64,000 nt of DNA. Source: Paraburkholderia hospita. GTDB lineage: Bacteria > Pseudomonadota > Gammaproteobacteria > Burkholderiales > Burkholderiaceae. The notes below the pieces were generated by a model, which saw nothing but the letters and a program-made list of their open reading frames with translations, searched no databases and was not told where the DNA came from. Made by a program: the position numbers and the translations under genes. Positions 394 through 16,951 of the stretch are shown one piece after another (the first letter of the stretch is position 1; every line of letters starts with the position of its first letter). The DNA is taken from NCBI RefSeq assembly GCF_002902965.1, contig NZ_CP026109.1:248001-312000 (forward strand). The letters are read 5' to 3'.

Positions 394-2901
394 TCAAGGA
401 TAGGCCGCCGCCGCGGCAAGATAGAGCAAGACCGCTATCACGACCACTGCGGTAAATCCCAGATGAATTGCGAGTACCGTCGCCAGAACTGCAGCGACCA
501 CGGAAGTGCACGCGTTGACGCCCCAAGCCCACGGCACGAGCGTTTCGGCGCCGGCAGCAATGCGGCTGAGCCCCAGCGGAAAGGGCATCCCCATCGCAAA
601 CGCGAGCGGCGCGACGAGCAGTACGGCGATCACGATCCTTGCCGGATCGGATAGCGGGATCAGCAACGGGAACAGCGCGGGCAGCAAGAGCAGGTAGAAG
701 AACGAGATGGAGGAGATCGCGACGATCGCCATCGCCGCGACCGACGAGCGATTCGTGCTCCTGCAGGGCCGCGGCGCGTAGCTGGCCAGGAGCGCCTCGC
801 GGCCCTGCAGGCGCTGCGTGTACCGGCTTCCAAGTCCCGCGAACGAAAGGAACACGCAAAGAACGACGGCGACAGCATAGAGCGGGTGACTCAGGAGCAG
901 GACGAACTTCTGGATGAACGCGATTTCGATGAACATGAAGGCGAAGCCAATCGCGACGAAATAGATCGCGACTCTACGTCCGGATATCGGCGCCACCGAA
1001 GGAGTGGGGTTACTGCGGGAAGAAGCCTCAAAGAGCGACGAACCATGAGCCTTGCGTTTGCGGCGCGTCATCACCCAGAGAGGAAAGAGGATCAATGCCA
1101 TGGCCGTCAACGTGGCCTGAAGCAGCGTCGCAATCAGTACCGGATAGCCCCATTCCAGCAAGGGCAAGCCGCCTCGCCCCTTCAAGGCGAGAAACTCGGG
1201 CAGCGACCGCCATTTGAAGAAGTGAAAGAAGTACGGCTTGTCGTCCGTGGCGGGACGGATGTCGAACTTGTAGCTTGCCCAGAACGTGTCTCGCCCGGTG
1301 CTCAGCAGAGCGCGCGCGGCTTCGAAGAAATAGGGCCTCTCAAGCACGTTGTATCGATTCGCTTCGGCGGCCTGCATCCCCGGGTAGTATCCGACGTCGA
1401 ACGAACGGGCACGGCAGAAGCGGCCCAGCGCGGCGATGTCCGCGTCATCGAACTCACCGTTCTTGACCAGCAGTGTCGCGGTATTCCAGCCGCGGATCAG
1501 CACGAGCCGGCGAGACGGTTGCGTCACGCCGGCGTTCTCCATGGCCAGCACGGCCGTCGCAAACAGCTTCAGGACGTCGCGCGGGGGCAACGTGACCCAG
1601 CGCGTGATCGCCAGCATGCCACCCGGGTTGAGATGGCGCAGATAGTCCTGAAACGCCTGCACCGTGTACAGATAGCTCTCGGAAAGTGCGTAAAGGCCGG
1701 CCGACGTGGCGCTGAACGAATCCAGCAGCGCGACCTGGATGAGGTCGTAGCGCTCGTCGCGTGCAGCGACGAAGCCACGCGCTTCGCCGGTGAATACGCG
1801 AACGTTGGGCGCGCTGTAAGGCTTGCCGGAAAAGTCGGCGAAGCGGCGCTGCACGGCGTCGACTATCTGCGGATTCAGTTCCACCGCGTCGATCGCGCTC
1901 GCTTCGTGGTACAGCGCCTGCAATACGTCGGCTCCCGCGCCGCTGCCAAGCACGAGGACCTTGGGTCGCCGCAGCAGGTGATAGGGAAGCGATGAGGTCA
2001 GATAGTCGAGGTAACCGAGCGGCTCGCGCCGTCCGTCATAGCGATTGAGCGCGGATAGGCCGTCGCCGTCAGTAAACACGCCGAGTTGCGGCGGCGGCTC
2101 CATCGTCGCATTGAGGCTCAGCCCGGGTGCATGGCGAAACGGGACAAAGGGGCTCTCCACCACCGTGACGAGACCCAGCGGGCTCGAGCTTTCGGCGACC
2201 ACGCGCGCGTCCTTGATGCGCAGGGCCTGACTCAATTCCTTGAACTCCGACGGCCGCAACGCAAGCCAGTCGCGCGGCAGGCCGGTGGCCAGCACGGCTG
2301 CGGCGGCGAGCAACCACAGGGCCGACAGCCACCGCCGGTGCCAGCGGCATTCGATGCATGCGAGCGCCGCTGCCGCGAACCCCGCAGCGCCCAGTAACCG
2401 CAGTGCATCCAGCGGACGCAGCGCGAACAGCGCCCCGATGACCGCGACACTGCCCAAGCCCGCTCCGCCGATGTCGAAACTGTAAATGCGGGCGATCTGA
2501 TCGTTGAACCGTGTGAAGGTGAGACAGATGCTGGTCGCGGCGCAAAAGAATGGAACGAAGAGCAGCAGATAGATCAGGAGCAGACGCAGAGGCTCGCGCG
2601 GATCCCACAGAATCTCCAGCGGGTTGAACGCGACGCGCTGGGCAAAAGCAAACGAGGCGACCGCAAAAACGCCAAACAGAATTGCGCCGCCGACGAACAC
2701 GGCTGCGAACCGGGGCACGAGCCAGCGCTGCGCCAGCGCCACCATCGCACCGGCTGCCCCGTAACCCAGCAGCGCGACGCTGATCATCATGTACGCGAAG
2801 TGATGCCACTGGATGATCGAAAAGAGGCGCATCAACAGGATCTCGTAACCGAGCGCTGCGGCCGAAAGCAGGGAGAGGGCGAACAACGGCGCGGCGGGCA
2901 T
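394..2901 (-). CDS. Membrane-embedded spermidine synthase-like protein
   Basis: About 835 residues. Hydrophobic segments fill the first ~220 residues and return in the last ~230. Between them is a Rossmann methyltransferase-like core with VLVLGSGAGADVL followed by AVELNPQIVDAV, the nucleotide-binding loop and acidic residue of the aminopropyltransferase/SAM fold. Proteins of this build are usually annotated as polyamine aminopropyltransferase-like or SAM-dependent membrane proteins, and their reaction is seldom established. The ATG at 2901 was chosen; a GTG at 2940 would add 13 residues. It is followed on the same strand lineage by an isoaspartyl methyltransferase at 3002-3748, so both genes point the same way and may be co-transcribed. 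The actual substrate cannot be inferred. Confidence 0.8.
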   Translation of the reverse strand: MPAAPLFALSLLSAAALGYEILLMRLFSIIQWHHFAYMMISVALLGYGAAGAMVALAQRWLVPRFAAVFVGGAILFGVFAVASFAFAQRVAFNPLEILWDPREPLRLLLIYLLLFVPFFCAATSICLTFTRFNDQIARIYSFDIGGAGLGSVAVIGALFALRPLDALRLLGAAGFAAAALACIECRWHRRWLSALWLLAAAAVLATGLPRDWLALRPSEFKELSQALRIKDARVVAESSSPLGLVTVVESPFVPFRHAPGLSLNATMEPPPQLGVFTDGDGLSALNRYDGRREPLGYLDYLTSSLPYHLLRRPKVLVLGSGAGADVLQALYHEASAIDAVELNPQIVDAVQRRFADFSGKPYSAPNVRVFTGEARGFVAARDERYDLIQVALLDSFSATSAGLYALSESYLYTVQAFQDYLRHLNPGGMLAITRWVTLPPRDVLKLFATAVLAMENAGVTQPSRRLVLIRGWNTATLLVKNGEFDDADIAALGRFCRARSFDVGYYPGMQAAEANRYNVLERPYFFEAARALLSTGRDTFWASYKFDIRPATDDKPYFFHFFKWRSLPEFLALKGRGGLPLLEWGYPVLIATLLQATLTAMALILFPLWVMTRRKRKAHGSSLFEASSRSNPTPSVAPISGRRVAIYFVAIGFAFMFIEIAFIQKFVLLLSHPLYAVAVVLCVFLSFAGLGSRYTQRLQGREALLASYAPRPCRSTNRSSVAAMAIVAISSISFFYLLLLPALFPLLIPLSDPARIVIAVLLVAPLAFAMGMPFPLGLSRIAAGAETLVPWAWGVNACTSVVAAVLATVLAIHLGFTAVVVIAVLLYLAAAAAYP

Positions 2902-3001
2902 GGTCGCATGAACCGGAACGGGATACGGGAAGGAGTGCACACTCAGTCAATGCTGCCGTGCGGGTTCGCGCTCCTTTGCGTCACCTGGCTCTCACTCAGA
3001 A

Positions 3002-3748
3002 TCAATGCCCGACGAGCGGCACGAAGCTGACGGGCAGGATCTGTCGGGTGGAAACGGTCCCGTCGTTCGCCTTGCTGATCAGCAGCAGATACTGCGTCAG
3101 AAACTGCGCACCTACCGGGATGACTAACCTGCCGCCCGGCTTCAACTGCCTCACGAGGGGAGGGGGAACATGGCTTGCCGCGGCGGTGACGATGATGGCG
3201 TCGTAAGGCGCGTGTGCTTCCCACCCGTAATAGCCGTCCCCTAATCGGGCCTCCACCCGCTTGTACGCGAGCCGCTGCAGACGCTCCTGCGCCGCCTTGG
3301 CCAAAGGCTCGATGATTTCGATCGTATAGACCGCACGGGCGAGGGTCGAGAGGATCGCTGCCTGGTACCCTGAGCCGGTGCCAACCTCCAGCACGACGTC
3401 AGTGGGCTTGACCATCATCAGGTCGGTCATCAGCGCGACGATGTACGGCTGCGAAATGGTCTGGCCATAGCCGATGGGAAGCGGCCGGTTCTCATAGGCG
3501 TTGCGCTCTTCGCCTGGCGGGACGAACTGGTGGCGAGGCACCAGGTCCATCGCGGCGAGCACGCGCGTATCGATGGCGGGTCTGCCGGTTGCGAGGAAGG
3601 TTTCAGTCGTGAGTTCGCCAACGTCTTTGACCATTCTCGCCCGCTGGGGCGCAAAATCGTCGGCCGCGTGAACGCCCGAAGACATCCACACCAATGCGAT
3701 TGCTGGAATCAGGGTGCGCGGCCAGCGCAGCATGACTGGTTTCACCAT
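3002..3748 (-). CDS. pcm: Exported protein-L-isoaspartate O-methyltransferase
   Basis: 248 residues. The first ~28 form a signal peptide ending near SSGVHA, so the product probably works in the periplasm, unlike the cytosolic enzyme. The PIMT body follows: GYGQTISQPYIVA, then the SAM-binding loop VLEVGTGSGYQAAIL, YTIEIIEPL, and LKPGGRLVIPVG. PIMT methylates L-isoaspartyl residues in damaged proteins so that they can revert to aspartate. It lies 100 bases upstream of the spermidine-synthase-like gene on the same strand. An internal ATG at 3733 is an alternative start. Family assignment is firm; periplasmic location rests on the signal peptide. Confidence 0.9.
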   Translation of the reverse strand: MVKPVMLRWPRTLIPAIALVWMSSGVHAADDFAPQRARMVKDVGELTTETFLATGRPAIDTRVLAAMDLVPRHQFVPPGEERNAYENRPLPIGYGQTISQPYIVALMTDLMMVKPTDVVLEVGTGSGYQAAILSTLARAVYTIEIIEPLAKAAQERLQRLAYKRVEARLGDGYYGWEAHAPYDAIIVTAAASHVPPPLVRQLKPGGRLVIPVGAQFLTQYLLLISKANDGTVSTRQILPVSFVPLVGH

Positions 3749-3778
3749 GCGATCTCTGTTGCCTGACCTATCGCAATT

Positions 3779-4012
3779 CTACGCCCGCGCATGCGAGGTC
3801 GTGCAGGACGTGTTCGCCCGCCGCGTATCAGGCGCAGCCCCCGAACCCGTCGCCACGTTCTTTGTTCCGCGCGCAATAAACCCCGCGCCCATTCCCGCTG
3901 TGCAGCCAACCACCAGAGAGCGCCGGATCGTCCATATGCCTTCATCGGACGACTCGCTGGCTACGCGGTCTGGAACCATGTTTTGCGCCGCTCGGAAAGC
4001 GACGCTGCGCAT
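3779..4012 (-). CDS. Small hypothetical protein
   Basis: 77 residues, no family recognised. The middle is glycine-rich (VVGCTAGMGAGFIARG). There is no clear ribosome site before the ATG. It sits 9 bases downstream of the small membrane protein at 4022-4246 in the same direction, which is the main reason for listing it. It could be a chance open frame. Confidence 0.25.
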   Translation of the reverse strand: MRSVAFRAAQNMVPDRVASESSDEGIWTIRRSLVVGCTAGMGAGFIARGTKNVATGSGAAPDTRRANTSCTTSHARA

Positions 4013-4021
4013 CAGGCTCGG

Positions 4022-4246
4022 TCAGGCGAAGAACACGAACGGCAGTGTCAGCATCAGGTAAATCGCAAGCCCGGTGGCTGGCAGGCCGGTGGCGATCGCG
4101 ACTGCCGCGACCGCGCTTCCGATTAGCGCGAGCGCAACCAGCCAGCGTCGGGTAGCTTGAGGAGCGCTGAGGTCTGCGCGTCGGCTAGTATCGACGCGAT
4201 GTTCGTTGTTCCGCGCCACGCATTTTCGGATGTGCAGGTCAAGCAT
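4022..4246 (-). CDS. Small membrane protein, unknown function
   Basis: 74 residues beginning at the ATG at 4246, which has GAGGGA upstream. The N-terminal half is polar and basic. The C-terminal half forms two hydrophobic stretches, WLVALALIGSAVAAVAIA and GLAIYLMLTLPFVFF, separated by a short glycine-containing turn, so a two-pass helical hairpin is likely. No family is recognised. Confidence 0.45.
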   Translation of the reverse strand: MLDLHIRKCVARNNEHRVDTSRRADLSAPQATRRWLVALALIGSAVAAVAIATGLPATGLAIYLMLTLPFVFFA

Positions 4247-4262
4247 GGCTATTTCCCTCAAG

Positions 4263-4861
4263 CTATATTCGTTCCCCCACGGACGCGAGTCTGGTCGTGG
4301 CGTCGTACTGGAACGTCAAGAGCGTCTGCGGATGCAATACATGTCGCTGCTCTCATAATAGCCGTTGGCGCATTCGGGAGTAAAAGGGCACCAGCATGGC
4401 GATCTGCAATCAGCTAATGCAAGGCCTGTCGAGAAGCAAAGCGGGTTGGGACCCGGTCGGCCCACCTAGGCGATTCCACGCTGTGTCAGTTGCTGGGTCG
4501 CAACAAGACGGAACTCGCTTGTGCTGCATTTGGTGTCTATTTGGATTAATCCGAGATTGTTCAGCATTAGCGTTTCATTGGCCAATACAAGGCGCCGCCG
4601 GAATCGGTCCGGTCGAGACGTCCACGGGAAACGTCCGCTACTTTGTTTTGCCACTCCGGGGGGGCGGAAGAAGGCGAAAGACTTGCCGCGGTTCTGTAGA
4701 AAAAGTCGTTGGCCAACCTTGGGATCATTTGTTCTCGGTGATTGTCGGCATGTGCAGCGCGGCTTGTCTCCGTCGCGTGCCCTGAATTCGACCAGATCCG
4801 GCTGGGCCGTATCGCCTTATAATATTTATTGAACGGTCTGGTCGCGTGAATATGCCGGGGT
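4263..4861. other. Gene-poor stretch
   Basis: About 600 bases with no open frame that looks coding. Its right end holds the likely promoter of the toxin-antitoxin pair. Confidence 0.5.
4818..4823 (+). promoter_or_regulatory. Likely -10 box of the parDE-type operon
   Basis: An exact TATAAT lies 38 bases upstream of the antitoxin ATG, in a short AT-rich patch. No good -35 is visible at the usual spacing. Such operons are normally repressed by their own antitoxin. Confidence 0.4.
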
Positions 4862-5125
4862 ATGGCTATGATCAATGCAGATCTTGGGCAACAGCTTGAG
4901 GCCTACGTCGCGAAGTTGGTCGAGTCGGGTCGCTATGGCTCGGAAAGCGAGGTTCTGCGCGAAGGCGTAAAGCTCATTCAGGATCGCGAAATGCAGCTCG
5001 TCGCGCTGGATGCGGTCATTGAGCGCGGCATTGGCGATTCGAAGGCGGGACGGGGCAACCTCGCCGAGGACGTGTTTGACCGGCTTGAAGCAAAATATCA
5101 TGCAGCGGCGGGCAGCAAGCGATGA
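4862..5125 (+). CDS. parD: ParD-family antitoxin
   Basis: 87 residues. The N-terminal ~45 match the ribbon-helix-helix type: a short basic strand, then VAKLVESGRYGSESEVLREG, the hallmark of ParD/CC2985 antitoxins. This half should bind DNA as a dimer and repress the operon; the rest should wrap the toxin. The stop overlaps the toxin start (ATGA), so translation is coupled. A second ATG at 4868 is an alternative start. The partner gene and layout strongly support the call. Confidence 0.9.
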   Translation: MAMINADLGQQLEAYVAKLVESGRYGSESEVLREGVKLIQDREMQLVALDAVIERGIGDSKAGRGNLAEDVFDRLEAKYHAAAGSKR

Positions 5126-5424
5126 TTGTCCAGATCCTTCCTGATGCCGAGGCCGATCTTGAGGCCATCGGCGATTACATGGCCCGCGACAACCCCCGTC
5201 GCGCCCTGAGTTTCGTGCGCGAACTGCGCGAGAAGTGCATTCGCCTCGCCGACATATACGTCGCATTCCCAATCGTGCCGCGCTACGAAGACCGTGGCGT
5301 GCGTCACCGGGTTCACGGCGGCCACCAGATTTTCTATCGTGTTGTTGGCGAGCCTCCCGAACGCGTCGACATCATTCACATCCTGCACAGCGCGCACAAC
5401 TACGCCGCGGTCCTTTTTCGCTGA
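5122..5424 (+). CDS. parE: ParE/RelE-family toxin
   Basis: 100 residues with the ParE pattern: an opening strand ILPDAEADLEAIGDYMA, a helical middle around RALSFVRELREKC, and the closing RVHGGHQIFYRV and VDIIHILHSA strands. ParE toxins poison DNA gyrase, while the related RelE toxins cleave mRNA. The sequence fits ParE better because the helical hairpin at the start is long. It overlaps the antitoxin by four bases. Length is normal and no lesion is seen, so the pair looks functional. Confidence 0.9.
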   Translation: MIVQILPDAEADLEAIGDYMARDNPRRALSFVRELREKCIRLADIYVAFPIVPRYEDRGVRHRVHGGHQIFYRVVGEPPERVDIIHILHSAHNYAAVLFR

Positions 5425-5906
5425 ATTCGCGCGAGTTGCCCGACGGCGATCCGTTTATTTCCGCAGGTCTGTCTTGTGTTTGAGCGCGAGTACAGACGCC
5501 TGCCCGACAAGTCCATACATCGCGAGGCTATCTGATTGATCGACGGGCTCCAATGGAAGCGAGCCGGGCTCTTCACATCCGGGCGGCGACGTTCTGCACA
5601 AAGGTGACTTTGCCGATCGGCAATACCTCACTGTCCATCGGGAGCCCGAATTCCGACGTCCGTAAGCGTGAAAACGCGCCTCACTTCGCCGCTTCCAGCG
5701 GTGCCCACACCGACGGGTTTCCGGATGCCAATGAATTGTCTGCGCACGCAGGCTATGCCGGGTTGCACCAGACCTGGAGATTGAACGCCAATACAAAAGA
5801 CCTGGACTGATTTAGATCTTACGAATTTTCGCGCGCACGCATCGATGGGTGCGACGGGCTACTGCGTCTATCGCGACAAGAGGACGTTTCATACCTGATG
5901 GGTTTC
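5425..5906. other. Intergenic region, no supportable gene
   Basis: About 480 bases between the toxin and the convergent zinc-finger gene. Short frames exist on both strands but have neither ribosome sites nor protein-like composition. Confidence 0.5.
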
Positions 5907-6290
5907 CTATTGACGGGTGGGGCGGTGCTGTTCGAACGCCGTCTGGCATGAAACGCAGCGGGCCGTGTAGGGCGCGGCGACAAGGCGCTCATAACCGATC
6001 GGGTCGCCGCAATCGACGCATGCCCCGTAGCGGCCGGCGGCGACGCGAGCCAGCGCCGCGTCGATCTGCTGCAGTTCGTCGAATTCGTGCCGCGCGAGCG
6101 CAGTGCGCAACTGATCGCTCGCTTTGCGCGATGCGGTCTCGTCGGCATGCGACTCGGGGCCCAGCTCTTCGGGCGGCCGTGCTCCAGCGAGATCGCCGTA
6201 TTCGCCGCGCAGCGTCGCCAGCAGCTCACGACGGCGCTCGCAGAGCCTTTGTTGTAACAGCCCGAGTTCGGAACAGGTGAGGGTGATCAT
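5907..6290 (-). CDS. DksA/TraR-type zinc-finger protein
   Basis: 127 residues from the ATG at 6290. An N-terminal coiled-coil hairpin rich in Arg, Glu and Leu is followed by a four-cysteine finger: CVDCGDPIGYERL then ARCVSC. This is the DksA/TraR layout. Such proteins reach through the secondary channel of RNA polymerase and modulate initiation with ppGpp. An upstream in-frame ATG at 6335 would add 15 unconvincing residues. It is a single gene between the toxin-antitoxin pair and the AraC regulator. Whether it acts on RNA polymerase is inferred from the family. Confidence 0.85.
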   Translation of the reverse strand: MITLTCSELGLLQQRLCERRRELLATLRGEYGDLAGARPPEELGPESHADETASRKASDQLRTALARHEFDELQQIDAALARVAAGRYGACVDCGDPIGYERLVAAPYTARCVSCQTAFEQHRPTRQ

Positions 6291-6631
6291 GGACAAGGCT
6301 CGATGTGTTCTGAAACGCCACGCAACGGGTGGCATCGCGAAGGCGTTCCGTCATGTGCGTACTACCACACAGGCCAAACCAAGCATGCACCCGCCGGGCG
6401 GTTAGCACAATGCGACAGTAACGATCCCGTCTGACGATCCTGAGTTTCGTCGCTAAAGCCCTACCAATGAAGCCGGACGCTGGGTGGTGAATGAGTGGGA
6501 CCCACACAATGAAATGTTTAACTCACGCGAGATTTGAGGCAGAAGCGACGCGTCACAGCGGTACGTTGAACGCCTCAAGCGCCTGTGAAACAATGGTTAG
6601 AGATCACATATAGCAGGACATAACGTGCATC

Positions 6632-7564
6632 ATGGCCCATGACCAACAGCGCCGCCGGACCGTTCTGCATTTTGCGCTCTATGGCGCGGAAGCCGACCAG
6701 TCCTGGGTCGACATGGTGCATTACGAACGCATTCCCCTGCGCGCCGGCCGTTTCGACTTCGACATCAAGCCGCACGTCCACGATGCGCTGATCCAGGTGC
6801 TCTACGTCACCGCCGGGGGCGGCGAAACCTTTATCGACGGCAAGACCTGGGTAGTCGAACCGCCATGTCTGATCGTCGTGCCAGCACGCTCGGTCCACGG
6901 CTTTCACTTCCGGAGCGACATCGACGGTCACGTGATCACCGCCGCGCAGTCTGCGCTGGAATCGCTGGCGATGACGGCCGCGCCCGAGTTGCTGGAATTC
7001 ATCCGCACGCCGACGGTGCTGTCGGTCGATCCCGACGTCGAGCGCGGCACACCTCTGGACACCCTGTTTCAGTCGATCGGGCACGAGGCGGAGAGCCACG
7101 AGCGCTGGCAGTTCACCGCAGGCGCAGCACTGACCATCGCCCTGTTCGTCAAGATCGGGCGCCTCAGCGAGAGCGCCCGGCTTTCGGCCAGTTCCGAGCA
7201 TCGGACAATGGCCGCGCGGATCGAGCGGTTCCGCGCGCTTCTTGACCGCCATTGCCGTGAGCGGCGGCCGGTCGCCAGCTATGCCGACGAGATGGGCGTG
7301 TCGACCGGCCAGCTCTCCCGCATCTGCCGCGCCACCTTCGGGGTCTCGGCAATCGAGGCAATCGATGCACGCTCGATCCATGAGGCCAAGCGGCTGCTCG
7401 GTTATTCGACGCTCAGTGTGAAGCAGATCGCGAGTGAACTGGGGTTTCAGGACGAGGCCTATTTCGGTCGTTTCTTTCGCAAGCAGACGGGACTCCGGCC
7501 AACGGAATACCGCTCTGCGGCTCACGATCGATCCTTGCCGCCCGACAAGGGGAGAGCGGGCTGA
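6632..7564 (+). CDS. AraC-family regulator, PobR-like
   Basis: 310 residues. The first ~170 form a cupin-like sensor (KPHVHDALIQVLYV, then VVPARSVHGFHF). The last ~100 hold two helix-turn-helix motifs, VASYADEMGVSTGQLSRICR and SVKQIASELGFQDEAYFGRFF, with the usual RPTEYR close. The layout is that of the PobR/HpaA subgroup, which often senses aromatic acids. It is convergent with the P450 fusion (26 bases apart), so it does not share a promoter with it but is the obvious candidate regulator. The ligand is unknown. Confidence 0.85.
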   Translation: MAHDQQRRRTVLHFALYGAEADQSWVDMVHYERIPLRAGRFDFDIKPHVHDALIQVLYVTAGGGETFIDGKTWVVEPPCLIVVPARSVHGFHFRSDIDGHVITAAQSALESLAMTAAPELLEFIRTPTVLSVDPDVERGTPLDTLFQSIGHEAESHERWQFTAGAALTIALFVKIGRLSESARLSASSEHRTMAARIERFRALLDRHCRERRPVASYADEMGVSTGQLSRICRATFGVSAIEAIDARSIHEAKRLLGYSTLSVKQIASELGFQDEAYFGRFFRKQTGLRPTEYRSAAHDRSLPPDKGRAG

Positions 7565-7589: not shown

Positions 7590-10379
7590 TTAGGCCGATA
7601 AGCCACCCAGCTTCACGAACATATGCTCCGGCCCGGAATTGGTCAGATTGTTGCCCCGCACATACTGGATCGGCCTTGCCGGATCGAACGCTATGTCGCC
7701 GACCTTGCGGGCCAGAGCCTTCGTCGCGATCAGTGTCTCCAGCTTGGCGAGCGGCGCGCCAAGGCATTTGTGCATGCCGTTGCCGAAACCCAGGTGGCCG
7801 CTGGAGTCGCGGTCGATGTCGAACGTCTCACCCTCGGCAAACTTTCGGCTGTCGCGATTTGCGGCCGACAGCAGCAATCGCACCACCGCGCCCTTGGGCA
7901 GATCAACGCCCGCGACGGTGGTCGCCTCGGTGGTGATGCGGCTCACGCGCTGGACCGTTCCACGATAGCGCGCCACCTCTTCGACAAAACGGTCAGCGTC
8001 GGCGGGGTTTTCGCGGATACGTCCCAGCAGATCCGGCTGTTCGGCGAACATGCGAAAAGCGTTGGCGACAAGGATAGTCGTCGTGTCGTGCCCGGCGATG
8101 AAGACGAAGGCGCACAGCTCCTTCGCTTCCTTTTCCGAAAGCAGCCCGTCCTTCCACATGCGCGCGATATGCCCGCCGATCGACTGGCTGTCGGTGAGAA
8201 CGAGCCGTTCCAGCGCCCGCTTCAGGTAAGCGAAGAAAGCCTGCGCGCTCTGCTCGTCGGTGCCCGTCCCCGGCGCATTGCGGGCGAGGCGCCCGAAGTA
8301 GCTAAAGGTCTCGTCCGACCAGAACTTCATCTTCTCCTCATCCTCGTTCGGCACGTCGATCATCGTGGAGATGGTCGAGATGCTGAGCGGGATAGCGAAA
8401 TCGTTGACGACATCACCGCCGCCTTTGGCAATCATCGCGTCGAGCAGGTCCTCCGCCCTTTGCGCGATCTGCCTGATAAAAGGATCGAGCGCCAGCGGCA
8501 GGAAGGACGGCTGGACGACCTTGCGTAACCGCGAATGGTCGGGTGCATCGAACAGCGTCAGGAACGTCAGCGGTGGCGGGCTGACGACCTCGGAGGAAAA
8601 CAGCTTCGGGTTGCGGATTGCCTGATAGACGTCGTCATAGCGCGAGAGGAACCACACGTCCGAAGTCGCCGACTGGCACCGCAGCACCGGCGCATGCTCT
8701 CGCATCCAGCGGTAGTGCTCGTAGGGGTCGCCTTGCGAGCCGTCATCGACCACCTTGAACGGCTCCAGCCCCTCGGGCCAGTCCAGTTCGTGTGAATAGG
8801 GCGGAAGGGTCCTGGACGTGAACGGGCAGACCTGCGGCGCGCTCTCCGGCACAGCAGACAGGAGAGAGGGGGGCGCTGCGACCATGGGTGTCGTCTTGAC
8901 CATCGCCATATGCTCCAGCGCCCGGCTCATCGTGGCCCTGGAATGGAGCGCATGCAGCGCGATCACGTCGCGCGCCGCGTTCAGGTCGCCCAGTTCGAAG
9001 GCAGCGACGATGTCCCGGTGCTGCTGGACGATATCGCCGACGATCTCGATCTGGTCGGTCAGCGCGCGAGCGATGTAGTCCTGCACGGTCAGTTGCCGGT
9101 AGAGCGCGATCAGCTGGGCATTTCCGGAAGCTTCGATCGTGAACATGTGGAAAGCGTGGTTTGCCTCGATGTAGCGAGGAACATCGGTAAAGCGCCGCCC
9201 GGACACGAACTGCGCCGTCGCCTCGGCGAGCTGGCGGAAGATGATCAATTGCTCGGTCGACAGCCGGCCCATGGTCAACTGAGCTGCCCCCAGTTCGAGA
9301 ACCATGCGCAGGTCGAAGGCTTCATCGACATCAACAGGAGCAATGCGCTCCTCGCCGGTCTGGACCACCAGGCCGGTGCCGGCGAACTTCTCGTAGTAGA
9401 AATTGCGCGGCGTCAGCCCTTCGGACGAGAGGAAGCTGCGTACCGCATCAACCATCGGCGGCGGGCCGCAGAGGTAGACGTCCGCATCGCCACCGTTGAG
9501 CTGGGAGGCGCTGATGTGGTGGGTCACATAGCCCTTGCTGGGATGGGCGCTGTCGGGGCTGGCCACGGTGCAGGCATAGGTGAAGTTCGGCAGCCGCTGC
9601 GCATCGATTTCAAGCCGGTCGATGCCAACCAGATCAGCATCGCTGTTCACACCCAGGATCATGTGGATCGGATACGGGCTGCCGCCGTCTTCGACGATCT
9701 TGTCCAGCATCGAGAGGAACGGCGCGAGACCCGTGCCACCCGCCAGAAACAGCACCGGCCGTTCAATCGGGCGCAGGTAGAAGCTTCCCATCGGGCCGCG
9801 AAACTCGATTGGGTCGCCTGCCTTGGCGGTTTGGCAGAGCCAGGTCGACATCATCCCTTGACGCACATTGCGCACAAGGAAGGACAGGTGCGGCTCGGAC
9901 GGCCCGGAGCTAAAGGAGTAGGACCGTGTCTGATCGGTGCCGGGCACCCGGATGTTGACATACTGCCCAGGAAGGAAGCTGAGATCTGCGCGGTTCTCGA
10001 GTTCGACCGAGAAGGCGATCGTGGTGTCTGACGCTCGATGGCAGGCGACGATCCGTCCGCGGTGGGAGCATGGGCCGGTACCCGAGACATCGGAGTTCGT
10101 GGCGATCTGGATCACGCAGTCGGAACGTGGGCTCATCTGGCAGGTGAGAACCTTGCGGGCGGTCGCCTCCTCCGGGCTAAGCGCGTCTTCGACGCAGTCG
10201 CCCAGAACGTACTCGCCGGACTCGCAGATCGCCTTGCAGGTGCCGCACACACCATCACGGCAATCGAGTGGAATATTGATCCTGGCGCGAATGGCGGCAT
10301 CGGTGACGCGCTCGCCCTCCTCGCATTCGATGAAGCGGGTCACTCCGTCCTCAAAACGGAGGGTCATCTGATGGGCCAT
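7590..10379 (-). CDS. Fusion: BenC-like reductase, FCD domain, cytochrome P450
   Basis: 929 residues from the ATG at 10379, which has AGGAG at good spacing. Residues 1-95 form a plant-type 2Fe-2S ferredoxin (Cys 40, 45, 48, 80). Residues ~105-335 form an FAD/NAD(P)H reductase (RSYS at 152, GGTGLAP at 214, CGPPPM at 304). Residues ~355-490 match an FCD domain, the ligand-binding half of GntR/FadR regulators, but no winged helix precedes it. Residues ~520-929 form a P450: AGHDTT at 762, ExxR at 801-804, and FGNGMHKC with heme ligand Cys 872. All catalytic motifs are present, so it should pass electrons from NAD(P)H to its own heme. The order, reductase first and P450 last with an FCD between, differs from the P450RhF type and is unusual. 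The FCD metal-site Asp appears to be Asn 407; His 411, 454 and 476 remain. Substrate unknown; an aromatic acid is a guess from the neighbouring regulator. Confidence 0.92.
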   Translation of the reverse strand: MAHQMTLRFEDGVTRFIECEEGERVTDAAIRARINIPLDCRDGVCGTCKAICESGEYVLGDCVEDALSPEEATARKVLTCQMSPRSDCVIQIATNSDVSGTGPCSHRGRIVACHRASDTTIAFSVELENRADLSFLPGQYVNIRVPGTDQTRSYSFSSGPSEPHLSFLVRNVRQGMMSTWLCQTAKAGDPIEFRGPMGSFYLRPIERPVLFLAGGTGLAPFLSMLDKIVEDGGSPYPIHMILGVNSDADLVGIDRLEIDAQRLPNFTYACTVASPDSAHPSKGYVTHHISASQLNGGDADVYLCGPPPMVDAVRSFLSSEGLTPRNFYYEKFAGTGLVVQTGEERIAPVDVDEAFDLRMVLELGAAQLTMGRLSTEQLIIFRQLAEATAQFVSGRRFTDVPRYIEANHAFHMFTIEASGNAQLIALYRQLTVQDYIARALTDQIEIVGDIVQQHRDIVAAFELGDLNAARDVIALHALHSRATMSRALEHMAMVKTTPMVAAPPSLLSAVPESAPQVCPFTSRTLPPYSHELDWPEGLEPFKVVDDGSQGDPYEHYRWMREHAPVLRCQSATSDVWFLSRYDDVYQAIRNPKLFSSEVVSPPPLTFLTLFDAPDHSRLRKVVQPSFLPLALDPFIRQIAQRAEDLLDAMIAKGGGDVVNDFAIPLSISTISTMIDVPNEDEEKMKFWSDETFSYFGRLARNAPGTGTDEQSAQAFFAYLKRALERLVLTDSQSIGGHIARMWKDGLLSEKEAKELCAFVFIAGHDTTTILVANAFRMFAEQPDLLGRIRENPADADRFVEEVARYRGTVQRVSRITTEATTVAGVDLPKGAVVRLLLSAANRDSRKFAEGETFDIDRDSSGHLGFGNGMHKCLGAPLAKLETLIATKALARKVGDIAFDPARPIQYVRGNNLTNSGPEHMFVKLGGLSA

Positions 10380-10403
10380 GGCGGTGTCTCCTCTAGAGCC
10401 GCC

Positions 10404-10434: not shown

Positions 10435-10593
10435 AGGGCGGGCGCGCGAGGTAGCCTTGTTTCTCGCAAGCGCCCGGTGGGTTTGGTGACACCAATCTAG
10501 AGCCTGAGGGGCGTTCCCCTCAATGGACAGAGACGACGTTCACCCGGACAAAACGTGCATGGTGATGGATGCCGGATGACCGCAGTAACCTGG

Positions 10594-11413
10594 GGTTCTG
10601 TCGCAGTAACGCGGTCCGCTATGATGTGCGGAACGACACGAACTACTGAAAGCTCGATGAAGACGTTGAATCCGGCGGTGGCCCGAGTGCTCAAGCGCCT
10701 GCATTATCCGCTCGACGTGATCCTGACTTGCGTGCGCTGGTACGTGGCCTATCCGCTGAGCCTGCGGCACCTCGAAGACATGATGGCTGAGCGCGGCGTT
10801 TCGGTCGATCATTCGACTGTGCACCGCTGGGCTATCAAGCTGTTGCCGGCACTGGAGAAAACGTTTCGCGGTCGCAAGCGGCCGGTTGGCAAGAGCTGGC
10901 GGATGGACGAAACATACATCCGCGTCAAGGCCGAATGGCGGTATCTTTACCGGGCCGTCGACAAGGACGGCAACACCATCGACTTTCTGCTACGCGCTCA
11001 TCGGGACAAGACTGCTGCCCGGCGTTACTTTGAGAAATCGATCGTCTGGAACCGTGCTCCCGAGACGGTGACCATCGACAAAAGCGGCGCCAATCTCGCC
11101 GCGCTCGAAGCGATCAATGCCGATCGTGGAGCTCCCATCAAGATCCGTCAGTCCAAATATCTGAATAACGTGGTCGAGCAGGACCATCGGGCGATCAAAC
11201 GACGAACGCGGCCGATGCTGGGGCTCAAGACATTTCGCTGTGCCCGGATCATTCTTTCCGGCATTGAGGTTATGCACATGATCGCGAAAGGACAGATGAA
11301 GTGCGCTCGCGGAACCCATTCGTCCGCCGCTGATCAATTCTACGACCTCGCAATATAAGCAGTACTTCGAATATCGATCTCGTTCGCCCCTCGATCCTTA
11401 CCGCGACAAAACC
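10594..11413 (+). mobile_element. Intact IS6-family insertion sequence, 820 bp
   Basis: The left end GGTTCTGTCGCAGTAAC (10594-10610) and the right end, read inverted, GGTTTTGTCGCGGTAAG match at 14 of 17 positions. Length is typical of IS6/IS26 relatives. The 8 bases flanking each side (taacctgg and gcttcgta) differ, so no target duplication remains, as after cointegrate or deletion events. The element lies about 215 bases upstream of the P450 fusion start. Confidence 0.85.
10657..11358 (+). CDS. IS6-family transposase
   Basis: 233 residues from the ATG at 10657, the normal size for this family. DDE residues are visible in RMDETYIRV, TIDKSGAN and VEQDHR, with the family's LNNVVEQDHRAIKRR signature and HRWAIKLLP in the N-terminal part. 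It appears intact. It should catalyse replicative cointegrate formation. A longer upstream frame exists but runs into the left inverted repeat. Confidence 0.92.
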   Translation: MKTLNPAVARVLKRLHYPLDVILTCVRWYVAYPLSLRHLEDMMAERGVSVDHSTVHRWAIKLLPALEKTFRGRKRPVGKSWRMDETYIRVKAEWRYLYRAVDKDGNTIDFLLRAHRDKTAARRYFEKSIVWNRAPETVTIDKSGANLAALEAINADRGAPIKIRQSKYLNNVVEQDHRAIKRRTRPMLGLKTFRCARIILSGIEVMHMIAKGQMKCARGTHSSAADQFYDLAI

Positions 11414-13177: not shown

Positions 13178-13621
13178 TCAACCATCTGACACGCTGAGCA
13201 TGGTTTGCCGACATCCCGTTGAACCACAACGGCACGCATACTGTCGCCTGATCTCATCGGTGGGTTCCCCGTCGACGGCCAGCGCATAGTCAATAAACAA
13301 CTCGCAGCCGGGCGCGATGTCGGCGAGCGCATGAATGAAGACACGATCGCCCGACTCAATGGCTTCGCAATTCGGTACGCATGCGTGGTTCAGGAAGCGT
13401 GCGCTGTTGCCGCCGCGGCTGCCATCAATCACCCGTCCGTCCGCGAGTCCGAAGACGAACGTGTGGCCAGCGTCGGCGCGCTGGCGCGCGGCGGCCCGCC
13501 GCCAGTTGGTCAGCTCACCCGTGTACTCGATAAGCCGCTCGCCGGCAGCGATGGGCCGTAGCGCGAAGAGCCCTTTGCCATGCACTGACGAGCGTCGTGC
13601 AGTTATCCGTCTCTGTTGCAC
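13178..13621 (-). CDS. SET-domain protein, complete paralogue
   Basis: About 147 residues. The SET core shows ITARRSSVHGKGLFAL, RVIDGSRGGNSARFLNHAC, and a catalytic-type tyrosine in LFIDYAL, followed by a post-SET cysteine cluster (ACRCGSTGCRQ) that should bind zinc. The start at GTG 13621 has CAGGA upstream and lines up with the start of the copy at 1-303; an ATG at 13654 would add 11 residues. Small SET proteins methylate lysines; substrates in bacteria are mostly unknown. HU, a lysine-rich DNA protein, is encoded nearby, so it is a conceivable target, but that is speculation. Confidence 0.88.
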   Translation of the reverse strand: MQQRRITARRSSVHGKGLFALRPIAAGERLIEYTGELTNWRRAAARQRADAGHTFVFGLADGRVIDGSRGGNSARFLNHACVPNCEAIESGDRVFIHALADIAPGCELFIDYALAVDGEPTDEIRRQYACRCGSTGCRQTMLSVSDG

Positions 13622-13917
13622 GTGTGAAGTCCTGTTGGGTGAATGTCCAATCATCGCGGTTCAAAAATCAGGCGCGAAGCATATCGCTACTTCCACTAAA
13701 GACTCAACTCCGCATGAAGGCATTGCGCAACTAACTGTCTGATGCTCCAAGGTAGGATCCAGCTTCGCCAAAGACCTGCCGACAGGAAAGGGGGCCTTCG
13801 GGAGCGAGGCGGTGCCTCGTCAGCCAGCTCGTGGGTTGCCGGACCGACATACGTGCGGTAGGGTGGCGTCCGGTCCACCAGTATCGGGGACGTTATTGCT
13901 CAAAGGGAGACTGACAG

Positions 13918-15244: not shown

Positions 15245-16951
15245 TCATTTTCGCGCGGCGAACGCCTCTGCAAACTGGCGTGCCCGTTTGACCTCATCGC
15301 TGTGGAGGTAGATCGAGGTGGTGGAGACGGACGCATGACGAAGATTGTCGCGCACCGCGGTGAGTTCCGCGCCGCTGCCCAGCGCGTGCGTGGCGTGGGT
15401 GTGCCGCATCCAGTGCGGACTGGCGCGCCGCAGCTTGTCCGCAAGCGGCGCGTGGTCGGCCTCAATCGCTTTCGCCGCCAGCAGGAAAAACCGTCGTATC
15501 ACGACCCACAGGCGCGCACTGCTGATGGCCGAGTCGCTGTCCGTTTCCAGGGCGCCGATGATGGGGGTTGCCGGATGCCAGCGCACGGGCACGACGGGTA
15601 ATTCGCGTTCAGCCAGATAGCGCGCCAGTCCATCCCACGCGAGCGGCGGCAGCGCGACGCGCGCGGATTTCTTGCCTTTGCCGGTAACCCGTAACCAGTG
15701 CTCGCCGCGCGCGTCCGTTTCCGCCTGGCCCAGGGTCGCGCCAACCAGTTCACTGGACCGGAGCCCCGTTGCATAGCCGAAATCGAGCAGGAAACGCAGC
15801 CGCTGCGCCGCGGGTGCACTCCAGCCGTAGGACCATTCGAGCCCGTCGGCCATCGTGCGCACCAGTGCCCACTCGCCGTCCGTAAAGGCGCGCGAGGCGT
15901 CGAGCGCGGTCGGACTGCTGCCGCGCACCTTGACGCCCGCGAACGGATTGGCCAGCACGTAGCGCTGCTCCACGAGCCAGCGGAACAGCGCGCCGAGGAT
16001 CGACAGCGCGTGGGCCACCGAGCGCGTGGAGAGACTCCCATTGAAGGGTCGCCAGTCGGGTGAGGTGCGGGCCCGCCCCGGACCGACCCAGCGCGCGCGG
16101 GGCGAGGGCTGCCGCAGGAAGGCGCGGTAGGCGATGGCGTCCTCGGTGGTGAGCGAGGACAGCGCGCGGCCGTGCTCAACAATGGCCCACAGGATCAGGC
16201 GTTCGGCCTCCTTGCGGTAGGTACGCTGGGTCGCGGGGGATTCGTGCAGCGCGAGCCAGGTCTGCACCGCCTGATAGTCGTTGGTTGCATCGAGCGTGCA
16301 GGTTGCACGCGGCGCGCGGAAGGTACCGGCTGTCCCGTCGACCTCGTGCGGCAGGCGGATCGCTTCCCACGGCACGATGTCGTTGCGCTGGCGGGTGACC
16401 ACCAGCGCGCGTGCTTTCTCCGTGAGGGCAGGCCATGCGGCGAAGAACGCTTCAATGGCGCGTGCGCTGGCCACGCCGAGTCCGGGCACCGCCTTCCACC
16501 ACTGGCGCCGGCGCGGAATGCGCACGGTCAGATCCGCGAGCGTCGTGATGCCGTGTGCGTTTAACACCCGTACCGCGCGCGGTGCGAACCAGTGTGCGAT
16601 GTCGTCCGCGATCCGGGGTGCCGGCGGGCGCGCCGTGCGCAGCGCGTCGATGGCGTGACCCACGGCTTTCGCATGCTGTTCGCGCGCGGCAGATGGATGG
16701 TCCAGCAGTCCAGCGAGATCGCCGCGATGCGCGGCGCGCGCGAGCGCGACGAGCCTGCGACGGATCTGGCCGAGCACGCCGCGCGCCGACTTGCCGCCAC
16801 CCAGACATGCGGGCAGATAGCGCGCGACGGCCTGCCGCACGGGCAGGCCCGCGTACCACGCGCGCAGCACGGCGAGTTCATCCGCATCGGGAAAGCCGGG
16901 AGGAGGTTCGCTGGCGGGCGGGGCGGGAATCGGGTCAGGCCATTTTTGCAT
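15245..16951 (-). CDS. Large tyrosine recombinase (phage-type integrase)
   Basis: 568 residues. An N-terminal ~200-residue extension contains a helix-hairpin-helix-like stretch (VPGLGVASARAIEAF). A SAM-like core-binding domain follows (YQAVQTWLALHES, TQRTYRKEAERL), then the catalytic domain with Arg in ATGLRSSEL, a lysine in the VTGKGKKSARV beta-hairpin, HWMRHTHATHALG, and the nucleophile Tyr in TSIYLHS. The set of active-site residues is complete. The N-terminal extension is longer than in most integrases and is typical of a plasmid-borne group. A perfect palindrome lies 29 bases upstream of the start. Confidence 0.88.
   Translation of the reverse strand: MQKWPDPIPAPPASEPPPGFPDADELAVLRAWYAGLPVRQAVARYLPACLGGGKSARGVLGQIRRRLVALARAAHRGDLAGLLDHPSAAREQHAKAVGHAIDALRTARPPAPRIADDIAHWFAPRAVRVLNAHGITTLADLTVRIPRRRQWWKAVPGLGVASARAIEAFFAAWPALTEKARALVVTRQRNDIVPWEAIRLPHEVDGTAGTFRAPRATCTLDATNDYQAVQTWLALHESPATQRTYRKEAERLILWAIVEHGRALSSLTTEDAIAYRAFLRQPSPRARWVGPGRARTSPDWRPFNGSLSTRSVAHALSILGALFRWLVEQRYVLANPFAGVKVRGSSPTALDASRAFTDGEWALVRTMADGLEWSYGWSAPAAQRLRFLLDFGYATGLRSSELVGATLGQAETDARGEHWLRVTGKGKKSARVALPPLAWDGLARYLAERELPVVPVRWHPATPIIGALETDSDSAISSARLWVVIRRFFLLAAKAIEADHAPLADKLRRASPHWMRHTHATHALGSGAELTAVRDNLRHASVSTTSIYLHSDEVKRARQFAEAFAARK

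Follow-up and report, generated by a model that had tools for sequence, protein, structure and literature searches.

Our analysis of a 64,000-nucleotide stretch of the Paraburkholderia hospita genome (contig NZ_CP026109.1, positions 248,001 to 312,000; hereafter the window) centered on a single gene that joins a reductase, an FCD domain and a cytochrome P450 in one chain. We are highly confident, judging from sequence, that its product is best explained as a member of the P450CHC (ChcA) class, a self-sufficient hydroxylase that would open the aerobic breakdown of cyclohexanecarboxylate, with the FCD domain probably in a modulatory or stabilizing role. P450CHC and ChcA are names of the enzyme from P. 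terrae KU-64. In that enzyme, an N-terminal [2Fe-2S] ferredoxin, an FAD, an FCD-like and a C-terminal P450 part make up a single chain that carries out the initial hydroxylation in cyclohexanecarboxylate degradation, as described in a review passage (PMC9687028) on the work of Yamamoto, Hasegawa and Iwaki (2022). The window protein fits this order, with complete redox and heme motifs. An earlier note on this DNA had set the arrangement apart from known self-sufficient P450s and named candidate aromatic acids as test compounds; a novel architecture was rejected, since the KU-64 enzyme with identical order and its function are already in print (excerpts of PMC9687028), and the published substrate and neighbor genes indicate cyclohexanecarboxylate instead. 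The kind is thus already known, and the window enzyme is one more member of a published class.

The open frame lies on the minus strand (the earlier note gives no strand), starts with ATG and encodes 929 residues, with internal stops absent. A Pfam scan of the protein recovered five domains, each over its cut-off: Fer2, FAD_binding_6, NAD_binding_1, FCD (E = 7.5e-16, 59.1 bits vs. a cut-off of 24.3) and lastly p450 (residues 746-885). The same scan reported no helix-turn-helix at E <= 0.001, and so none of the N-terminal winged type that precedes the FCD in GntR/FadR regulators, confirming that the middle segment scores as an FCD without its DNA-binding half; nor did it report a flavodoxin-type domain such as belongs to the diflavin reductase of CYP102 (class VIII). 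Residues 1-333 match the NCBIfam BenC equivalog (492.5 bits vs. a cut-off of 430), and the motifs are complete: Cys 40/45/48/80, Arg152-x-Tyr154-Ser155, AGHDTT at 762, and FGNGMHKCLG beginning at residue 865, which places the heme cysteine at 872 as the earlier note had it. Pfam, NCBIfam and motifs thus bear out its claim of one frame with a BenC-type reductase, an FCD and a P450.

We found 593 relatives of the fusion, of which 120 were listed and underlie the domain counts. Sixty-seven of these are full length at 67-96% identity, each with all five Pfam domains in a single chain of similar length, indicating that the frame is genuine. The ratio of nonsynonymous to synonymous substitution rates (dN/dS) was below 0.45 outside the linker in all eleven comparisons of the window gene, and 0.04-0.14 in its P450 part, values that indicate purifying selection on the window copy. 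Three genes fused by a sequencing error are ruled out by the 67 five-domain relatives and by these ratios. Host genera include Paraburkholderia, Burkholderia, Caballeronia, Cupriavidus and Trinickia, as well as Kluyvera, Enterobacter, Pseudocitrobacter, Amaricoccus and Sphingomonas. Some records differ: P0090-P0095 (Kluyvera, Pseudocitrobacter) are recorded as FCD-P450 without a reductase, yet loci such as L053-L059 match the whole query, so that either a true split or the annotation may account for these records; P0096 joins a related P450 (69% identity, 44% of the query) to a different FAD ferredoxin reductase, on a single 5.2-kb contig, and may be a gene-call artefact.

Many relatives are named 'benzoate 1,2-dioxygenase electron transfer component' in public records, which fits the BenC match and would make the window gene a benzoate dioxygenase reductase (BenC). 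We consider this very improbable in view of the fused P450 with its complete motifs, the failure to find the BenC partners BenA and BenB among the ten neighboring open reading frames (ORFs) scanned, and the presence of standalone BenC-like reductases in the same genome. Among known P450 systems, GcoAB (5ogx = GcoB) consists of two separate proteins and is not known to carry an FCD, unlike the window fusion. CYP116B enzymes (P450RhF, CYP116B46), which are not known to carry an FCD, are likewise self-sufficient P450s with an iron-sulfur reductase, whose ferredoxin part comes last in the chain. These class VII enzymes place the P450 first and use FMN rather than FAD (excerpts of PMC9687028), whereas the window protein has a BenC-type reductase and, as the earlier note had observed, the reversed order.

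Pathway context of the fusion

Electrons would pass from NADH through FAD and [2Fe-2S] to the heme, and the window copy would perform the same hydroxylation as the KU-64 enzyme. The product would be a hydroxycyclohexanecarboxylate, with the hydroxyl probably at position 4; in intact clusters, the dehydrogenase, the desaturase and the PobA-type enzyme encoded alongside may carry it on toward 4-hydroxybenzoate and protocatechuate. Of 46 related loci, 45 have an AraC-family gene that converges on the fusion, and in 30 the fusion is followed by a short-chain dehydrogenase (SDR) gene and an FAD-dependent ring-desaturase-like gene. Fuller clusters also hold NIPSNAP, a PcaK-like transporter (under cut-off), a porin and PobA (688 bits vs. 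a cut-off of 538.7 in L063). The L021 dehydrogenase was topped by a generic SDR model, with ChcB2 at 175.6 bits (cut-off 350). Since this model and that for the desaturase, ChcC2, both fall under cut-off, we read the pathway from the combination of genes and not from any single match.

Several observations weigh against this assignment. Class membership is read from architecture and pathway context, the KU-64 enzyme being compared by description only. Fifteen of the 46 loci are without the dehydrogenase and/or the desaturase although they offer at least 4.5 kb of space (two have the dehydrogenase alone), and one further contig is too short to judge. Several named SDR models outscore ChcB2 for the L021 dehydrogenase, and the L021 desaturase is best matched by generic FAD oxidoreductases, then by ChcC2 (cyclohexanecarboxylate aromatisation) at 544.7 bits (cut-off 900). 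The window copy is adjoined by the regulator alone, with no other pathway gene. The genome holds a second fusion copy, 92% identical to the first, and there (L100, G000:C4:133001-152900, at 2324-7512) the desaturase gene is split by an IS21-type element with IstB-like and Mu-transposase-like genes, and also has a frame break.

The window copy is an orphan, its presumed pathway partners being encoded at other sites of the genome, unlike the KU-64 enzyme as described: it stands beside an IS6-type gene, while contig C2 holds a dehydrogenase/desaturase/NIPSNAP/transporter set with open frames. A same-genome search found no match to the fusion gene on contig C2, and the window enzyme may feed this set.

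Conservation and role of the FCD domain

We aligned 66 of 121 proteins, query included, leaving out near-copies and most fragments. Mean identity to 24 distant fusions was 75% in the FCD, compared with 65-72% in the reductase domains and 45% in the linker, whose surroundings (residues 486-535) are the least conserved stretch among FCD-bearing (FCD+) fusions. Ten FCD+ comparisons put the dN/dS of the FCD at 0.07-0.19, and comparison with the FCD-less L063 put it at 0.40. Of the 40 FCD+ rows, 39 retain N407 and all retain H411, H454 and H476; these predicted ligands follow the metal-binding-FCD pattern (Asn/Asp-x3-His ... His ... His). In the FCD of Ps5454, the Ni2+ ligands are Asn144, His148, His192 and His214, with a spacing of 4/44/22 compared with 4/43/22 in the window FCD (excerpts of PMC7674646). 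A Protein Data Bank sequence search with the FCD alone gave a single match (6az6_A, E = 2.6e-5). This set of residues is not exclusive to fusions, as regulators have Asn at position 407 in 8 of 40 rows and each His in 34-36 of 40, and one relative (P0069) tells against strict conservation, with Thr at Asn407 and lower identity in its FCD (57%) than in its reductase (65-67%). The FCD probably binds a divalent metal together with a ring carboxylate; in shape, benzoate resembles cyclohexanecarboxylate.

The earlier note had suggested that the FCD gates electron flow. An obligatory gate, in which electron flow to the heme needs a carboxylate in the FCD, would agree with the FCD's identity and dN/dS values and with its retained ligands, but it is hard to reconcile with the P. 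youngii-type fusions (857-871 residues). In all seven of these rows N407, H411 and H454, three of the four ligands, are deleted, the redox motifs checked are retained, and the reductase is nested inside the FCD+ fusions (quick tree, Shimodaira-Hasegawa-like approximate likelihood ratio test 99). Within the genus, 33 of 144 genomes gave a match with an E-value no higher than 1e-130; of these, G067 carries both forms and G147 pieces only, while in G167 an FCD-less copy in an AraC-SDR-desaturase-NIPSNAP cluster is the only intact copy found, the FCD+ copy being a two-piece remnant. P. atlantica CNPSo 3155 likewise carries both forms (L029, L063). These patterns suggest that the pocket can vanish while the rest of the enzyme stays. 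The whole-chain AlphaFold2 model (predicted template modelling score 0.38) leaves the FCD unplaced with respect to the redox centers and so lends the gate no help. We thus regard an obligatory gate as unlikely; what speaks for the gating idea is the purifying selection on the FCD and the retention of its ligands, and gating in any looser form stays conjectural.

At the opposite extreme, the FCD could be a mere spacer or dimerization element with a relic pocket, since the P. youngii-type fusions still have a stretch of 131-133 residues linking reductase to P450, in which parts of the first and the middle FCD helices persist, and since both linkers flanking the FCD, which forms seven helices within residues 348-494 of the model, are predicted to be disordered. 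We find this possible but doubtful, because a relic pocket would hardly retain its three histidines throughout the FCD+ fusions and the BenC-FCD proteins described below, and because the FCD on average evolves more slowly than the reductase. The FCD more probably modulates or stabilizes the enzyme than serves as an obligatory switch, and modulation by a bound ring carboxylate is possible. A structure comparison of the model had only reductases among the matches listed, and so speaks for the reductase part alone.

Kinship with BenC-FCD reductases

Actinobacterial proteins with a C-terminal FCD on a BenC reductase (BenC-FCD) share the reductase type, FCD clade and N/H/H/H ligands of the window protein (all four in 14 of 14 rows), but have no P450 and adjoin BenA. 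BenA lies upstream in two of their loci (837 and 805 bits vs. a cut-off of 781), with BenB also present in L068 (272 bits vs. 226). Our search with the actinobacterial FCD as query was limited to proteins of ~282-898 residues, where ordinary regulators could not appear, and returned 89 proteins with reductase domains in all except P0181 and P0193. For FCDs attached to reductases, the literature searched yielded P450CHC and, from Rhodococcus, a benC labeled 'FCD domain-containing protein' (excerpts of PMC11858498). Other combinations among the relatives are BenC-FCD-SDR (P0110, P0114) and BenB-like-BenC-FCD (P0097) fusions.

An FCD tree of 73 sequences (33 fusion or BenC-FCD proteins and 40 regulators of the window genome, a narrow sample taken from 45 other FCD matches in that genome with five left out) contains a branch (100/99) that parts fusions and actinobacterial BenC-FCD from all 40 regulators. 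This single clade suggests that the FCD was likely captured once by a BenC-type reductase, an old attachment that the fusions share with actinobacterial benzoate-dioxygenase reductases. The reductase tree counts against this, as it does not unite the fusions with the actinobacterial BenC-FCD group; a single capture then also requires loss in other BenC lines or domain transfer, and the tree leaves undecided whether the FCD traveled with the reductase. We tentatively propose that the captured regulator FCD became a metal-dependent ring-carboxylate sensor in the electron supply of both BenAB and P450CHC and was lost in the P. youngii lineage. If so, two unrelated oxygenases (the BenAB Rieske dioxygenase and P450CHC) would tune NADH use to substrate supply through a shared sensor. 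The FCD kinship with BenC-FCD and the FCD loss in one lineage are results added to the published class, and FCD+ and FCD-less enzymes in one genus, together with BenC-FCD reductases, make the role of the FCD directly testable.

Upstream control and surroundings of the window gene

In 41 of 44 loci, a TGTCC-N16-TGTCC direct repeat precedes the fusion by less than 350 bp, its exact form being absent in L047, L049 and L060. These loci hold 35 further matches to the repeat; 28 of them are found 3.7-3.8 kb downstream of where the fusion starts, directly before the dehydrogenase gene wherever that gene occurs. Scanning 45 loci gave 77 matches, whereas ten mononucleotide shuffles averaged 2.0. The likely reader of the repeat is the AraC-family protein encoded convergently, which probably activates transcription through it, and the common repeat predicts a regulon. 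The AGAGGAG sequence just 5' of the ATG recurs in 8 of 14 upstream sequences compared.

Table 1 Features of the fusion gene and its flanks, in window coordinates (pLDDT, predicted local distance difference test)
Feature	Position	Strand	Basis
Reductase-FCD-P450 fusion, P450CHC/ChcA type, 929 residues	7590..10379	-	ATG at 10379; Pfam, NCBIfam
[2Fe-2S] ferredoxin domain (Fer2), residues 10-84	10128..10352	-	Cys 40/45/48/80 in 40/40 FCD+ and 7/7 FCD-less rows
FAD-binding domain, residues 110-201	9777..10052	-	Pfam
NAD(P)H-binding domain, residues 211-314	9438..9749	-	Pfam
FCD domain, residues 353-476, metal-type ligands N407/H411/H454/H476	8952..9323	-	Pfam, alignment, tree, model
Linker, residues 494-523	8811..8900	-	pLDDT < 50
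Cytochrome P450 domain, ~residues 546-929	7593..8744	-	AGHDTT at 762; heme Cys 872 at 7764-7766
Ribosome-binding sequence AGAGGAG	10388..10394	-	By eye
Direct repeat TGTCC-N16-TGTCC, 21-bp period, probable AraC-type operator	10525..10550	-	Repeat scan
Candidate -35 and -10, following the direct repeat	10518-10523 (-35), 10494-10499 (-10)	-	By eye
AraC/XylS-family regulator, HpaA-like, convergent to fusion	6632..7564	+	165 bits, under HpaA cut-off of 274.65
IS6-family transposase-matching ORF	10555..11358	+	237 bits vs. cut-off 125, residues 47-245

The IS6-type transposase gene lies upstream of the fusion. DNA similar to the upstream sequence of other loci continues beyond 10555; the element proper therefore appears to start farther from the fusion gene, past the direct repeat. 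The window also holds a DUF3701 and tyrosine recombinase (phage-integrase type) gene at 15245-16951, and the two suggest that the orphan fusion may lie on the boundary of a mobile region. Elsewhere in the window, a small SET-domain protein (13178-13654; Pfam 74 bits, NCBIfam match far under cut-off) seems unusual in a bacterium, and at 394-3748 a large protein with a spermine-synthase-like domain adjoins a protein-L-isoaspartate methyltransferase on the same strand.
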